Positions 28,112-41,458 of a DNA stretch of 64,000 nucleotides are shown in pieces. The notes below the pieces were generated by a model that was not told the DNA's origin, ran no database searches, and was given only the letters and a program-made list of their open reading frames with translations. Position 1 is the first letter of the stretch; each line of letters begins with the position of its first letter. Made by a program: the position numbers and the translations under genes. This DNA is from Methanobacteriota archaeon (lineage in GTDB: Bacteria; Myxococcota; UBA727; JABDBI01). The stretch covers positions 1 through 64,000 of the forward strand of contig JABDBI010000001.1 in NCBI GenBank assembly GCA_013288705.1. Reading direction: 5' to 3'.

Positions 28112-28537
28112 ATGAAAAACGATATCGCCATGTTATTGCTCCGACTCAGTTTTGGCACCACACTGTGTGTTGCACATGGGTGGTCGAAGCTGATGACCTA
28201 CGCAGAGCATGCTGCCACGTTCCCCGATCCTCTTGGTGTGGGCGCCCCAGTCAGTTTGGCGTTGGTCATTTTCGCGGAGTTCTTCTGTGCATTGGCTGTT
28301 GTGGCTGGATTGTTCACCCGGTTGTCAGCGGTTCCCGTCATTATTACAATGCTGGTAGCGTTCTTTGTTATTCATGGACACGATACTTGGGCAACCAAGG
28401 AAGCGTCTTTTGTCTACGCTGCAGCATTTCTATGCATCGCTGTTGCGGGCGCTGGAAATTTTTCCCTCGATTACGTTCTCTCGCAGATGAAGCAAAAGTC
28501 ATTCACCATTAAATCGCCAACGACGGCCTCCACATGA
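28112..28537 (+). CDS. DoxX family membrane protein
   Basis: 141 residues with four predicted transmembrane helices, the DoxX core pattern (RLSFGTTLCVAHGWSKL; LALVIFAEFFCALAVVAGLFTRLSA; ITMLVAFFVIHG). Members are linked to quinone oxidation, redox balance or, as BufD, to bufferin clusters. GGAGAG precedes the ATG. It overlaps the cyclophilin by ATGA, so the two are made together. It lies 6 kb from the bufferin-like genes at 34268-36024, so a link to them is only a possibility. Confidence 0.85.
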   Translation: MKNDIAMLLLRLSFGTTLCVAHGWSKLMTYAEHAATFPDPLGVGAPVSLALVIFAEFFCALAVVAGLFTRLSAVPVIITMLVAFFVIHGHDTWATKEASFVYAAAFLCIAVAGAGNFSLDYVLSQMKQKSFTIKSPTTAST

Positions 28538-34267: not shown

Positions 34268-34522
34268 ATGAAACGTCGCAATACACTGCTGCTTGGTCTA
34301 GGTACTGCCGCTGCTCTTTTGACGGCACCCATTTTGTCTTCTGGTTGTGTCACTACCAAGTCCGCAAACGGTGCGCATGAAGGCAAATGCGGATCTGAAT
34401 GCTGTGGCAAAAAGAGATGCAAAGAGGGCAAATGCTGCGGCAAGAAGGAAGGATCTTGTTGCAGCAACAAAGACAAGGGTGAAGGCTCTTGCGGCGAAAA
34501 TTCCTGCAATGGCAAAAAATAG
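34268..34522 (+). CDS. Cys-rich bufferin/oxazolin-type RiPP precursor
   Basis: 84 residues from ATG 34268 (AAAGAGG upstream). N-terminal Sec-type signal ending PILSSGC (Cys27, possible lipobox). The mature part carries ten further Cys at 41, 45, 46, 51, 56, 57, 64, 65, 75 and 80, arranged as EGKCG, EGKCC, EGSCC and EGSCG units between lysines. EGKCG repeats are the hallmark of MNIO-modified precursors (HvfA/bufferins), in which the Cys becomes an oxazolone/thioamide or thiooxazole-type copper ligand. The next two genes encode the matching enzymes and overlap it. Predicted role: copper sequestration in the envelope (inference). The CC variants and possible lipidation are unusual. Confidence 0.85.
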   Translation: MKRRNTLLLGLGTAAALLTAPILSSGCVTTKSANGAHEGKCGSECCGKKRCKEGKCCGKKEGSCCSNKDKGEGSCGENSCNGKK

Positions 34523-35348
34523 ACCTTCTGGTGTTGGCATAGGTCTTAGGCTGCAGTTTGCCGAAGAGCTTGTGTCAACTAAGGCGACCAATGCGAGTTT
34601 TGTAGAAATCGCACCAGAAAATTATTTGGGCGTCGGTGGCTACAGGGCTCGTTTGCTTGCAATGGCCAAGGAACGCTGGCCCGTGGTTTGCCATGGGCTT
34701 TGCGGTGATTTGGCCGGCGCCGCACCACTCGACCAAGAGTATCTCACCGAGCTAAAGCAATTTCTACGCGACGCTGACGTGCACTGGTATAGCGATCATC
34801 TTTGTTACACGCATCTTGCTGGTGTCGAAACGCACGATCTCATTGCGCTTCCGCTTCATGAGGGCGCAGTGCGGCGGGCGGCCAAACGTATTCGCGAAGT
34901 GCAGAGCTTTCTTGAACTTCCAATGGCGATAGAAAATGTTTCTGCATACATGCGAATGCCTGGCAGCGAAATGCGCGAAGAAGACTTCGTCGCTGCCGTG
35001 GTGCGAGAAGCAGATTGTCATTTGCTTCTCGATATCAACAACGTTTATGTTAACTCGATTAATTTTGGATTCGACGCAAAGTCCTATGTAGACGCACTAC
35101 CACTCGAGCGTGTGCTGCAGATTCATATTGCTGGCCACCATCGGGAGAGCGAAGATCTTTTGATCGATACTCACGGTGCCTCCATTGCTGATCCGGTCTA
35201 TGACTTACTTTGCTACACCTTGCGCAAAATGGCTGCCGTGCCACCCATACTACTTGAGCGCGACAGCAACATTCCGCCACTTATCGAAATTGAACAAGAG
35301 TTGGAAACGCTGCGAATCTGTGTCGAGCAATGTCATGCAAGAGCTTGA
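34509..35348 (+). CDS. bufB: MNIO (DUF692) RiPP-modifying enzyme BufB
   Basis: 279 residues from ATG 34509, overlapping the precursor by 14 bases. Multinuclear non-haem iron oxidase with a TIM-barrel fold. Seen: GIGLRLQFAEEL, VEIAPENYLGVGG, WYSDHLCYT (His ligand), MAIENVSAYM (Glu), LLLDINNVYVNS, QIHIAGHH and ILLERDSNIPP, which hold the metal-binding His, Asp and Glu residues of the family. Established: such enzymes oxidise Cys in the precursor. The overlap with precursor and partner ensures joint synthesis. Confidence 0.93.
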   Translation: MAKNRPSGVGIGLRLQFAEELVSTKATNASFVEIAPENYLGVGGYRARLLAMAKERWPVVCHGLCGDLAGAAPLDQEYLTELKQFLRDADVHWYSDHLCYTHLAGVETHDLIALPLHEGAVRRAAKRIREVQSFLELPMAIENVSAYMRMPGSEMREEDFVAAVVREADCHLLLDINNVYVNSINFGFDAKSYVDALPLERVLQIHIAGHHRESEDLLIDTHGASIADPVYDLLCYTLRKMAAVPPILLERDSNIPPLIEIEQELETLRICVEQCHARA

Positions 35349-36024
35349 ACAAGCGCTGCGCGATTTGGTGTTCAAAAGAGATCCGGCATGGCTCGTTGGC
35401 ATAGCCAAAGAGCGGCAGCTCGTTTATCGCCGCTTGATACACAACAATCTGTATGACGTCATCATTAGCCTTCTGCCACTTACGTACCATTTTGCTGGCG
35501 CAGAAAAATTCCGACAATGGATTGCCACCTGGCTCGAAGAGCAGGGGCCTAAGCAGCGCATGTATTGGATGATTCCCGTCGAATTTGCGGCATGGCTCAT
35601 GGAAAACATCGTTTCAGAGAATCTATTACTCGCGGAGCTCGCCCATTTTGAAGCGATGCAGCAGTGTGCGGAAAACGCCCCTAACACCCATCTGAGCTGC
35701 AAACTTGGCATCTACTATCATTCAGTGCATTTGATCTCTGACGAGAATTCCACCCTGCCGCTAAAGCTTGAGCGCCCGATTTTTCTCCTGATCTATCGCG
35801 CTGACGAAACTGTCCGCTGGTTAGAGATTGAACCGCAGGTCGCACAACTTCTCGCAAAGCTTGCGGAGGGAGCATCTCTTAAAGAATCTTTAGACTCTTT
35901 GAGCGAACTCTATGCAGATCTGGATCGCGCATATTTGACTGCCCAACTGGCTGGTCTTTCCCATCGCGGCTTAGTGTCGATATCAGAGACGCATCCAAGA
36001 GATGAGTCGGCTGTATATTCTTGA
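35335..36024 (+). CDS. bufC: DUF2063 partner protein BufC
   Basis: 229 residues from ATG 35335, overlapping bufB by 14 bases. N-terminal DUF2063 helical domain (LVYRRLIHNNLYDVIISLLPLTYHFAG) followed by a winged-helix-like C-terminal part (RPIFLLIYRADETVRWLEIEP; QLLAKLAEGASLKESLD). In bufferin clusters this protein binds the precursor leader and delivers it to BufB. The last 146 bases are read antisense by ttcA, an unusually long convergent overlap in which both products look intact. Confidence 0.88.
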   Translation: MQELEQALRDLVFKRDPAWLVGIAKERQLVYRRLIHNNLYDVIISLLPLTYHFAGAEKFRQWIATWLEEQGPKQRMYWMIPVEFAAWLMENIVSENLLLAELAHFEAMQQCAENAPNTHLSCKLGIYYHSVHLISDENSTLPLKLERPIFLLIYRADETVRWLEIEPQVAQLLAKLAEGASLKESLDSLSELYADLDRAYLTAQLAGLSHRGLVSISETHPRDESAVYS

Positions 36025-36784
36025 GCGCGTGCAACATCACTGCACGCACATCGGGAATCGTTTGCTCGAGATCACCTATGAGCTTAGTCATCGCCTCGCG
36101 CTTCAGGCCTTCTTGCGAACCGCATAGGTTACAAGGCAAGATTGGATAATCTTCTCGCACCGCGTGTGCAGCGATGTCGCTCTCCGCGCACTCAATCAAC
36201 GGCCGAATCACCTCAAAGCGACCATCATCGGTGGTATACTTTGCCGGCATCGCTTGTAGCTTGCCCGCATAAAATAAGTTGAGAAAAAATGTCTCCAACG
36301 CATCGTCACGGTGATGCCCAAGCGCAACTTTATTACATTCCAGTTTCTCTGCGGTGGTGTACAAAATTCCCCGACGCAGACGCGAACAAAGAGAACAATA
36401 TGTTGCACCTGGCTTGATCTTCTCCATCACCACTGAATACGTGTCTTGCTGAATAATCTGAAACGGAATGCCGCTTTGTAGAAGCCATCGGCGCAGTGAC
36501 GTGCCATCATATCCGGGTTGCACTTGGTCGAGATGCACAGCCATCAAAGAAAAATCAAATGGCGCCTTTTGCTTGGCGCGCCACAGCAAGTCGAGCATGG
36601 TGTAGCTATCTTTGCCACCAGAAATCGCCACCAAAATGCGATCATCAGGTTTGATGAGCTCGTATTCCACGATCGAACGCATCATGGTGCGGGTGAGCTT
36701 TTGCGCGCGTTGGCTCTTGTGCTCGCTGACGGCGTAACCTTGCCAATGGGCGTTGGTTGGCGCTGAAATTGTTTGGGTTTCCAT
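35879..36784 (-). CDS. ttcA: tRNA 2-thiocytidine synthetase TtcA
   Basis: 301 residues. Installs 2-thiocytidine at tRNA position 32 using ATP and a [4Fe-4S] cluster. Seen: the PP-loop ISGGKDSYTML, GATYCSLCSRLRRG and CNLCGSQEGLKREAM, which supply the cluster cysteines, ALGHHRDDALETFF and HALKNIQPTHLLD near the C-terminus. The start is uncertain: ATG 36784 is used, but a TTG at 36811 is in frame and neither has a clear ribosome-binding site. Overlaps bufC by 146 bases. Confidence 0.94.
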   Translation of the reverse strand: METQTISAPTNAHWQGYAVSEHKSQRAQKLTRTMMRSIVEYELIKPDDRILVAISGGKDSYTMLDLLWRAKQKAPFDFSLMAVHLDQVQPGYDGTSLRRWLLQSGIPFQIIQQDTYSVVMEKIKPGATYCSLCSRLRRGILYTTAEKLECNKVALGHHRDDALETFFLNLFYAGKLQAMPAKYTTDDGRFEVIRPLIECAESDIAAHAVREDYPILPCNLCGSQEGLKREAMTKLIGDLEQTIPDVRAVMLHALKNIQPTHLLDASLISTLSRDGKDQPVGQSNMRDPDLHRVRSKSLKIL

Positions 36785-36838
36785 GGGTGGGGATGATGTC
36801 AGAAGGAACAAAAATCACAATAAGCGCCCGCACACCTA

Positions 36839-38725: not shown

Positions 38726-38810
38726 AACTTTGACAGGCATTGACGGTTAAAGCGCGTTTATGCAACTTACATCGTTCGCTAAGCAGGCAAAAATAGCAAA
38801 AGGAATTCGT

Positions 38811-40211
38811 GTGCAAGTTCTCCATCGGCAAGTCATACTTATCTTGCGTGTATGCCTCTCCATTGGCTGCTTCTTGCTTGGCTGCGCAACGCACGATCAA
38901 CGCGATCCACCGCCCGTTGACACGCCCTATTATCCGGGTGCAATCAATCAGCTCAATAATCAACTGATTGTCGTCTCGCGTAACGGCAACGATCGGTTCT
39001 CAAACGGTAACGTTCTTTTCGTCGACCTCAACCAGGTTGATCGTAGCCTGCAAAAGTTCCCCGCAACGACTGATGTCATGTTGCGGCAAGTCATAGGCCC
39101 TGGCCTCGTCACAGGCTCGGTGCTGAGCCCAACATTAGGCATTGCACCTGCGCTCTCTTCTGACCAGGCACTCTTCGTGCTCGGGGGAGAAAAAAATCAG
39201 CTCGTTAAAATTCCTCTGGCAAACGGGAATCCGAACTGCGCCCCAAACCCAATAGGCAATCCCCTACTTGGACAGCAGTGTCTTGCTCCGAATTCGGTTC
39301 TACAACTCAATGCAACTAATCCTTTTTTCCTTATACTGACCTCGGGCGTGTCCAACTTGAGCAACCAAGACAGCGGACTCATCGCCTTCAAATTCAGCCC
39401 TGAATACCGCGCACGGCAGCCGGGCAAAGAAGACGCCTATGCTGGTGAGCTGCAAACTTTTATTTGGCCTAAATCCCAAACTGCCCCTCCACAGGTGGTA
39501 AACACATACTCACTTGCCAGACTTGTTCGAAACACTGACCAAAACAGTATCGTCGACAAAGTTCTAGTGAGCGACCTCAAGATTTCTAACAACTACGTCT
39601 TTGCTGCTTTTCAAACCGCGAAGGCAATAGATCCAGCGATATCAACCGCCGATCCCTATGCCTTTATTGTGTGGTTTCCGTTATCGGAACTGCAAAATCC
39701 AAGCGGAATCGATTCTACAAAAGTGAGATTTCTCAATCTCACATTAACCTACGGCGCAAAATTTGTCGCTGGCCTTGACGTGGTGAATGCTGGCAACGGC
39801 CTGATCAAGCTGATAGCCATTACCCAAGCGCCCAATGGCATTTTGCAGGTGCACATTCCTTCGCTCGGCGGCAACGGGCAAGCCTTTGTCTACCAAAGTC
39901 AAAGCACATGTGCAGACCCCGTCGACGTTCGACTCCTACCTGGTAGCTCGCGTATCTTTGTCGCTTGCTTCGACGGCAGAGGAAAGATAGCCGAGTATGC
40001 GCTCGATACTTTGATGCAGACAAGAGAACACACTGGCTTTGGTCGAGGCCCTTTCCAAATGTGGTTTGATACGCGGCCTGGCACATCTAGACTCTATGTG
40101 AGCTATTACCTCGAAGGAACGGTCGGCGTATTTGATGTCTCGCCAAGATTGTCTCCGCTCGGGCGCATTTTCCAAACTTCTGCGCCGAATCAGGAAGGTG
40201 GCCAAGGATGA
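38811..40211 (+). CDS. Propeller-like lipoprotein 1
   Basis: 466 residues from GTG 38811 (AAGGA upstream); an ATG at 38760 without such a site would extend it. Lipobox FLLGC. The mature protein is a run of short beta-strands with repeats such as LIVVSRNGNDRF, QALFVLGGEKNQLVKIPL, RIFVACFDGRGKIAEYAL and RLYVSYYLEGTVGVFDVS, the spacing of YVTN/beta-propeller surface proteins. No enzyme motif is visible. Probably an outer-membrane or periplasmic binding protein. Overlaps the next lipoprotein by ATGA. Confidence 0.65.
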   Translation: MQVLHRQVILILRVCLSIGCFLLGCATHDQRDPPPVDTPYYPGAINQLNNQLIVVSRNGNDRFSNGNVLFVDLNQVDRSLQKFPATTDVMLRQVIGPGLVTGSVLSPTLGIAPALSSDQALFVLGGEKNQLVKIPLANGNPNCAPNPIGNPLLGQQCLAPNSVLQLNATNPFFLILTSGVSNLSNQDSGLIAFKFSPEYRARQPGKEDAYAGELQTFIWPKSQTAPPQVVNTYSLARLVRNTDQNSIVDKVLVSDLKISNNYVFAAFQTAKAIDPAISTADPYAFIVWFPLSELQNPSGIDSTKVRFLNLTLTYGAKFVAGLDVVNAGNGLIKLIAITQAPNGILQVHIPSLGGNGQAFVYQSQSTCADPVDVRLLPGSSRIFVACFDGRGKIAEYALDTLMQTREHTGFGRGPFQMWFDTRPGTSRLYVSYYLEGTVGVFDVSPRLSPLGRIFQTSAPNQEGGQG

Positions 40212-41458
40212 TAATGCTGCGTCAAATCGTGTTCTGTTGCAGCACCGCCGCATTGCTCGGATCGAGCTGTGGGCAGAACCAAACTCTTTCTGGCTCGATC
40301 AATCAAATCAAGGATGCGGTCCTGGTGGACTGTCATACATACCCCATACCAAATCGTCCGCTAACGGAGAGCGACAAGCACACCTGTTTGGTGTATGCCG
40401 ATTCTACCGCACAGCAGCTCGGCGTATTTGATGTGTCGATAGCACAATTTGTGCTGAACTCGAGCGGCTATAGTGGTCTTGCGGGTCAAGTGGGTGAACA
40501 AACATCCCGACTTGCAGCCAAATCCAGCGTAAGTCCTTTTGTCTATGCACTTGATGTAGCTGAAAATAAAATTTTTGCGACCCGTACGCTCATTGATATC
40601 AACATCAATCAAACCTCTTTTGGTACGCCAACCGCCATTGATCTGGCGGCAGGCCAGATCCCCCTGGACATTGCGGTCATGGGCAACTCGCCTTTTGTGG
40701 CTCTCATCGCGAGCACAACCGGCCTGCAGGTAATAGAAATTGAACCCACTACCGGTCAACCTAAACAGTTAAGCACACTCAATAAGCAGTTTGCAGTGGG
40801 CCCGTTGTCTACCATTGCCGTGGATCCTGATGAGAATTTCGTTTTGCTGGCCCAGCAAGGAAGCACACAAATCCGAGTTCTCAGCACTTCCCAGATTCTG
40901 CAACCTTCTAGCACAATGTCATTGGACTCAGGCTTCACCGTCGACAACATCGAGAGTCCAATCAGAAAGATGGCCATTGGGACACTCAATGGCCAAGCGG
41001 TTGCAGTGATCCTGCGTGATTCCTTGAATGCAGATTTGCGCAAAATCGATCTAAGCGCAAAAAGTGCGCCGCTGCTTGCGACCCTGACTTTTAGTGCTCA
41101 GCCAAAAACTGTCTATTTCCCCAAAGACTCGCCCGCGATGGTAAACAACAGCACATCATGGCTCGCGGTCGTTACGGAAATAGGCACACTGGAATATACA
41201 TCTCTTGCCACCGTACAATTCAGTGGGCCCGTCACAACTATCGCAACGGCTACAACTGCCACCTTGTCCGCTGACAGCGACATACCAATCTACACCACAG
41301 AAGAGGTTTTGCTATCCAGCGCAATCGCTGGGGGTCAGATCAGGCAATCAAGCAGCACCTGCGGCACCCGCCTAGTATTGCTCGCATTTGGAACGGGCAT
41401 GCTCGCCAGTATCTGTGAAGGAAACATAAAGCTCACCATCTATAACAACTACAATTGA
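40208..41458 (+). CDS. Propeller-like lipoprotein 2
   Basis: 416 residues from ATG 40208 (ATGA overlap; a second ATG at 40214 is also possible). Lipobox LLGSSC. Like its neighbour it is built of short strands (DSTAQQLGVFDVSIAQF; VYALDVAENKIFATR; FVALIASTTGLQVIEIEP; FVLLAQQGSTQIRVL) and shares the GVFDVS motif with it, so the two probably have related propeller folds and may act as a pair. Overall sequence similarity looks low. Function unknown. Confidence 0.65.
   Translation: MIMLRQIVFCCSTAALLGSSCGQNQTLSGSINQIKDAVLVDCHTYPIPNRPLTESDKHTCLVYADSTAQQLGVFDVSIAQFVLNSSGYSGLAGQVGEQTSRLAAKSSVSPFVYALDVAENKIFATRTLIDININQTSFGTPTAIDLAAGQIPLDIAVMGNSPFVALIASTTGLQVIEIEPTTGQPKQLSTLNKQFAVGPLSTIAVDPDENFVLLAQQGSTQIRVLSTSQILQPSSTMSLDSGFTVDNIESPIRKMAIGTLNGQAVAVILRDSLNADLRKIDLSAKSAPLLATLTFSAQPKTVYFPKDSPAMVNNSTSWLAVVTEIGTLEYTSLATVQFSGPVTTIATATTATLSADSDIPIYTTEEVLLSSAIAGGQIRQSSSTCGTRLVLLAFGTGMLASICEGNIKLTIYNNYN

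Follow-up and report, generated by a model that had tools for sequence, protein, structure and literature searches.

A captophorin-type MNIO gene cluster with a lipoprotein-type, EGKC/EGSC repeat precursor in a myxococcal genome

The cluster analysed here consists of three genes on the forward strand, which encode a precursor peptide, an MNIO (DUF692) enzyme and a DUF2063/RRE partner protein, and each gene overlaps the next by 14 bp (Table 1). The window, that is, the whole stretch of 64,000 nucleotides that was analysed, had been annotated in a preliminary description as containing three ORFs that overlap by 14 bases each, and our ORF analysis reproduced these overlaps to the base. This layout had been called the known bufferin arrangement. 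The cluster class was named correctly, but a 14-bp overlap is not a defining trait of it; in most relatives the precursor stop codon lies tens of bases 5′ of the MNIO gene, unlike in the window. The partner gene also overlaps by 146 bp (35879-36024) with a convergent ttcA-like gene (35879-36811, minus strand). The family matches of the two encoded proteins meet near 35950, and the shared stretch therefore corresponds to their unconserved tails.

Table 1 Features of the cluster, with positions in the window.
Feature	Position	Strand	Basis
Precursor peptide gene, 84 aa	34268..34522	+	ORF; termini of mature part resemble those of relatives' lipo-EGSCG precursors
Signal peptide MKRRNTLLLGLGTAAALLTAPILSSG, lipoprotein type	34268..34345	+	PROSITE-like lipobox pattern; position and residues alike in relatives
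Cys27, predicted lipid-modified N-terminal residue of mature peptide	34346..34348	+	Lipobox pattern, relatives
Unit EGKCG, aa 38-42	34379..34393	+	
Cys45-Cys46 pair in SECCG	34400..34405	+	Absent from preliminary description
Unit EGKCC, aa 53-57	34424..34438	+	
Unit EGSCC, aa 61-65	34448..34462	+	
Unit EGSCG, aa 72-76, with conserved tail EGSCGENSCNGKK	34481..34495	+	
MNIO (DUF692) enzyme, 279 aa from ATG 34509	34509..35348	+	PF05114, model fold, conserved metal/catalytic residues
MNIO Leu15 = FonB Arg16 position	34551..34553	+	Alignment
MNIO Ser253 = FonB Phe250 position	35265..35267	+	Alignment
DUF2063/RRE partner (PME-type 1, HvfC/BufC-like), 229 aa from ATG 35335	35335..36024	+	PF09836, PF22106, model fold

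Neighbouring genes were also considered. The ahcY gene, 16 bp upstream, was rejected as a conserved partner because it is absent from the cluster region of every relative. The preliminary description had noted that no DoxX gene is adjacent and had placed the nearest at 28112. Indeed, none adjoins the cluster; the DoxX-family gene is real (58 bits) and lies at 28130-28378 (plus strand), flanked by genes for a PhzF-like protein and a cyclophilin. It was rejected as a cluster member because it is 5.9 kb upstream with unrelated genes between. A DoxX gene is frequent in bufferin clusters without being obligatory, and the fon cluster likewise has none (PMC13097082). Recent horizontal gain was rejected because the composition shows no sign of it (GC of 0.49-0.51 in the three genes vs 0.50 in the window), and a promoter and terminator scan yielded nothing exceeding shuffled sequences. 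Further downstream lie two neighbouring ORFs (38760-40211, 483 aa, and 40208-41458, 416 aa) that match no Pfam family; the second carries a lipobox.

In Pfam, the enzyme matched PF05114 (E 8e-92), the partner matched DUF2063 (PF09836, 2e-7) and NGO1945_C (PF22106, 3e-8), both over the cut-offs, and the precursor matched no family, DUF2282 included. In NCBIfam, the Hvf and Buf families were the closest for all three proteins, yet every equivalog cut-off was missed: the enzyme scored 308.6 of 360 bits for HvfB and 275.6 of 310 for BufB, and the partner scored 75 of 142 bits for HvfC. As for the comparison with HvfA and bufferin precursors suggested in the preliminary description, the peptide reached only E 0.16 and 12.6 of the 95 bits needed for HvfA, and its cysteine layout is not that of Buf2. 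AlphaFold2 models built from the relatives' alignments had a mean pLDDT of 92 for both the MNIO and the partner. When these models were compared by Foldseek, the top match of the MNIO was 3BWW (the Histophilus HvfB relative, E 3e-24), followed by TglH and MbnB, and that of the partner was NGO1945 (3DEE), followed by TglI, MbnC and stand-alone RRE domains. A comparison of sequences only hardly linked the partner to 3DEE (E 0.8).

The precursor contains the units EGKCG, EGKCC, EGSCC and EGSCG, in agreement with the departure from EGKCG repeats described previously; the exact EGKCG is one of the four, and shuffling the mature part 20,000 times did not once produce four EG[KS]C units. Ten of its 11 cysteines follow the lipobox cysteine, and two (RC-K and SC-N) lie outside the repeats. 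Two Cys-Cys units, EGKCC and EGSCC, had been reported and were confirmed, but the number of pairs is three, as SECCG had been overlooked. Cys-Cys occurs in the mature part of 2 of the 139 collected precursor rows, those of the window and L013, and was absent from all other precursors of the window's MNIO clade. Furthermore, three pairs are within chance for 10 cysteines in 57 residues (P 0.18). With this P value and the lack of pairs in the relatives, the pairs are unsupported as a selected feature, and they may be drift within the repeats. The different ligand set that the preliminary description had attributed to them is possible but speculative, because the pairs are neither shared by relatives nor above chance. 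L013 itself (G016:C36, another Myxococcota family) is a lipo-precursor of an unrelated clade with a regular KKCC/KKCG alternation (ADKKCCADKKCG), and no pair was found in L014, its nearest relative.

Relatives were sought in genomes of the same order and the same phylum and in named species. The MNIO type of the window was found in one of the eight genomes of its family, namely the window's own; another of them, G004, encodes an MNIO that is less closely related. The MNIOs nearest to that of the window, at 46-63% identity, come from other families of the same order, and three of them follow precursors with a lipobox, a linker, EGSCG repeats and the tail EGSCGEGSCG (L002/L200, L005 and L006). 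The order precursor-MNIO-partner is conserved in the relatives, and large genomes of the same phylum share the precursor type with named Myxococcus species (L075 and L105); on this ground the phylum is taken to be Myxococcota. No recognisable Cys-rich precursor was found near L003 and L004. The MNIO-partner pairs at these two loci (also L201 and L202), which are among the closest to that of the window (57-61% identity), follow a conserved small protein (RYVVSF...VERWW...VRAVPGV), which looks like a protease propeptide by eye and has no Pfam match.

The specificity residues of the enzyme were also examined. In a maximum-likelihood tree of 110 MNIOs, the window enzyme was placed in a clade of 6 rows (SH-aLRT 99). 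The canonical EGKCG enzymes form a clade of 54 rows (99) that does not include it. The metal and catalytic residues were invariant in all 110 aligned MNIOs, window included, and the equivalents of HvfB N175, D242 and H244 and of FonB D249 are kept. In FonB, Arg15, Arg16 and Phe250 have been tied to substrate reading, and Asp249 acts as the base (PMC13097082). The canonical clade has Arg/Lys at position 16 in 54/54 rows and Phe/Tyr at position 250 in 50/54. All six members of the window clade have Leu, Phe or Ala at 16 and Ser, His or Lys at 250, with Arg15, Asp249 and the metal residues kept. The window enzyme lacks the Lys-Cys signature (Arg16 and Phe250) of the EGKCG/oxazolin subfamily proper.

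The FonB R16A variant showed lower turnover when position 1 was charged and handled acidic position-1 residues worse (PMC13097082). Because Arg16 is lost in the window clade and R16A is poor with an acidic position 1, the reading of Glu by these enzymes is puzzling. The residue before Cys is Lys in 77% of canonical cores and Ser in 14/14 cases in the other window-clade precursors; the window itself mixes Lys and Ser. That the loss of Phe250 is a strict result of a Lys-to-Ser change in the core was rejected, because KCG cores occur together with Gln250 in some Myxococcaceae (L141, L150 and L011). This combination suggests that the shift in residues and cores is largely a phylogenetic lineage pattern and not a proven one-to-one adaptation. 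The window branch offers a natural experiment on substrate choice, in which enzymes without the proposed Glu1/Lys3 readers stand beside EGSCG-type peptides, and the Cys-Cys units raise the question of whether such an enzyme makes adjacent heterocycles.

The signal peptide ends in ILSSG followed by Cys27, with Ser and not Leu, Val or Ile at the -3 position. The lipobox was called by pattern match with calibration on the window's own genes, and comparable lipoboxes occur in other genes of the window. In the precursor table (139 locus rows for about 130 distinct loci, some entered twice), 43 rows show a signal of the lipoprotein type; 42 of these (36 distinct loci) are myxococcal or delta-type and one (L064) is likely a false positive. 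No canonical EGKCG precursor in the table, whether from Pseudomonadota, Bacteroidota or other groups, showed such a signal. The relatives share the lipobox region L-[AS]-[ST]-G-C-x-[ST]-[ST]-K, and LSSG-C-VTTKSA of the window fits the Myxococcus pattern LATG-C-ASTKSA. When the 10 residues after the cysteine and the last 24 residues were compared with the relatives, the scores exceeded those of all 2000 shuffles. Another 24-mer of the peptide scored 56.5 against the relatives' tails, vs 59.3 for the real tail; hence, the tail signal partly reflects repeat composition. A profile HMM built from the other lipo-precursors was rejected as proof of homology because the window scored no better than shuffles, and alignments of the terminal segments were used instead.

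Lgt is encoded twice in the genome of the window. LspA was not found in its 74%-complete assembly; it is present in 5 of the 7 other genomes of the family. In the same assembly, the best score for a Cu-transporting P-type ATPase was 111.7 of 397 bits, under the TIGR01511 cut-off. Incompleteness of the assembly may explain both the missing LspA and the missing ATPase. Lipidation of Cys27 is likely, as judged from the lipobox in relatives, the terminal matches, the other lipoboxes of the window, the two Lgt genes and LspA in the family genomes. Accordingly, the membrane anchor considered in the preliminary description appears well supported by the relatives.

The locus is a captophorin-type (bufferin/oxazolin-like) MNIO-PME1 cluster and a genuine member of the class: it has an MNIO with the metal and catalytic residues, a PME-type 1 partner with DUF2063 and RRE, and a Cys-rich precursor with a Sec-type signal directly 5′ of the MNIO. 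The class is further characterized by 5-thiooxazoles (-4 Da per Cys, about 305 nm) and copper binding. The DAG-RiPP mark, a signal peptidase II-type signal with a lipobox cysteine, is present by pattern match and conserved in relatives, and acyl groups on the N-terminal cysteine of the mature product are the further criterion of that group. A lipidated EGKCG-type product is already known, namely NedA of Neisseria dentiae, the 'DAG-RiPP' of NedABC, which is tri-acylated and shows -4 Da per motif (PMC12636315). In NedABC as in the window, an MNIO and a partner accompany a precursor that has a lipoprotein-type signal and EGKC repeats. The three motifs of NedA are canonical EGKCG, whereas the window peptide mixes EGKC with EGSC and contains three Cys-Cys pairs; the window enzyme probably belongs to another clade.

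The oxazolin system HvfABC of Haemophilus influenzae and the fontiphorin system FonABC share with the window the ABC gene order, the MNIO fold (3BWW), the DUF2063/RRE partner and repeated EGKC. However, HvfA and FonA have SPI signals and EGKCG repeats (PMC13097082, PMC13419390), whereas the window precursor has a lipoprotein-type signal and mixed units, and in the HvfB/FonB clade position 16 is Arg or Lys and position 250 is Phe or Tyr, where the window has Leu and Ser. The lipo-EGSCG clusters of Myxococcaceae (L075 and L105 of Myxococcus, and L144-L167) resemble the window in L-A-T-G-C followed by A-S-T-K-S-A, in SCG-type cores and in tails similar to SCGEGSCGGKK. Their MNIOs keep Arg16, have Gln at 250 and form a separate clade, and their precursors have no Cys-Cys. 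The bufferins Buf1 (DUF2282) and Buf2 (6/12 Cys) share the MNIO-PME1 core and a Sec-type signal (PMC12452194). The window differs from them in its cysteine layout and in having no DoxX gene in the cluster; Buf1 precursors carry DUF2282 with four conserved cysteines, and the window peptide has 11 cysteines and no DUF2282. For about 16% of the Buf2 bufferins, a lipoprotein is predicted (PMC12452194). The myxococcal branch, including the lipo-EGSCG clusters, is undescribed in the main texts of the surveys consulted. If the lipid-anchored reading is right, copper peptides made by MNIOs are not chiefly a matter of Pseudomonadota and SPI signals, and Myxococcota possess a widely distributed form of them that is held at the membrane and normally carries a lipid anchor.

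In studied relatives, the partner and the signal peptide steer recognition, a mixed-valent diiron MNIO forms 5-thiooxazoles, and the products bind copper (PMC13419390, PMC13097082). By analogy with them, the locus is probably a captophorin-type RiPP operon making a lipid-anchored, 5-thiooxazole-containing, copper-binding peptide. The DUF2063/RRE partner would bind the precursor and present it to the diiron MNIO, which would oxidise repeat cysteines in the cytoplasm to 5-thiooxazoles, with an expected -4 Da each. The likeliest sites would be the cysteines before Gly (41, 46, 57 and 75), and the least likely would be Cys51, before Lys. After Sec export, Lgt would put diacylglyceryl on Cys27 and signal peptidase II would cut, and the peptide would stay anchored in the membrane facing the periplasm, where it would bind and buffer copper. 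Against this reading stand the missed NCBIfam cut-offs, the loss of Arg16 and Phe250, the failure to find LspA in an assembly that is 74% complete, Ser at -3 and the lipo-precursor profile that misses the window. Copper protection is also doubtful for one studied member, bulbicupramide, whose authors were hesitant about it (PMC12538549), and is not certain for every member of the class.

It is also conceivable, albeit unlikely, that modification and export of the peptide take place without lipidation; the product would then be cut by signal peptidase I and be soluble in the periplasm, as expected for HvfA and Caulobacter bufferins. Most EGKCG precursors indeed have ordinary SPI signals, Ser at -3 is a non-strict lipobox residue, and the incomplete assembly yielded no LspA. 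However, the lipobox region is conserved in the relatives, the residues after the cysteine match theirs above all shuffles, and LspA occurs in sister genomes, all of which argue for the lipid-anchored peptide.

The remaining alternatives concern the fate of the cysteines. Full oxidation of the Cys-Cys units to joined thiooxazoles, or to thiooxazole-thiol pairs, would create a chelating set unseen in known captophorins; if both cysteines of a pair were oxidised, directly joined heterocycles would result. The pairs are rare in the family, coincide with altered specificity residues, and have a small residue (Cys, Gly or Ser) after each cysteine. Nevertheless, three pairs are not above chance, and neither the clade's other precursors nor L014 contain any, which makes this improbable. 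We consider it very improbable that an MNIO without the Arg16/Phe250 pocket converts these pairs in this way, so that a lipid-anchored peptide carries a new chelating ligand set of joined bis-thiooxazoles or of thiooxazole-thiol pairs. Least probable of all is a metallothionein-like lipoprotein that is barely modified or unmodified, its free thiols binding metal and the divergent enzyme acting elsewhere or poorly. A Cys-rich peptide with Cys-Cys pairs and an enzyme without Arg16 and Phe250 would suit it, whereas the three overlapping genes, the precursor-MNIO-partner order conserved in relatives and the fully kept metal and catalytic residues argue for modification by the MNIO.

A second MNIO-DUF2063 cluster was observed in the same genome (L025/L205, G000:C24:1-16000), with its MNIO gene at G000:C24:6826-7605 on the minus strand. 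Its precursor is of the Cys-Lys type (CRGKGGC, CKGKNSCKGKGGC) with an SPI-type signal, and its MNIO has Thr and Asp at the positions of 16 and 250, as published for Cys-Lys enzymes. The other genomes of the window's family (G001-G007) measure 0.3 to 1.8 Mb, vs 5-14 Mb in most relatives, and one genome of the family is a single contig of 0.3 Mb with 87% completeness. These small genomes suggest host-associated reduction.
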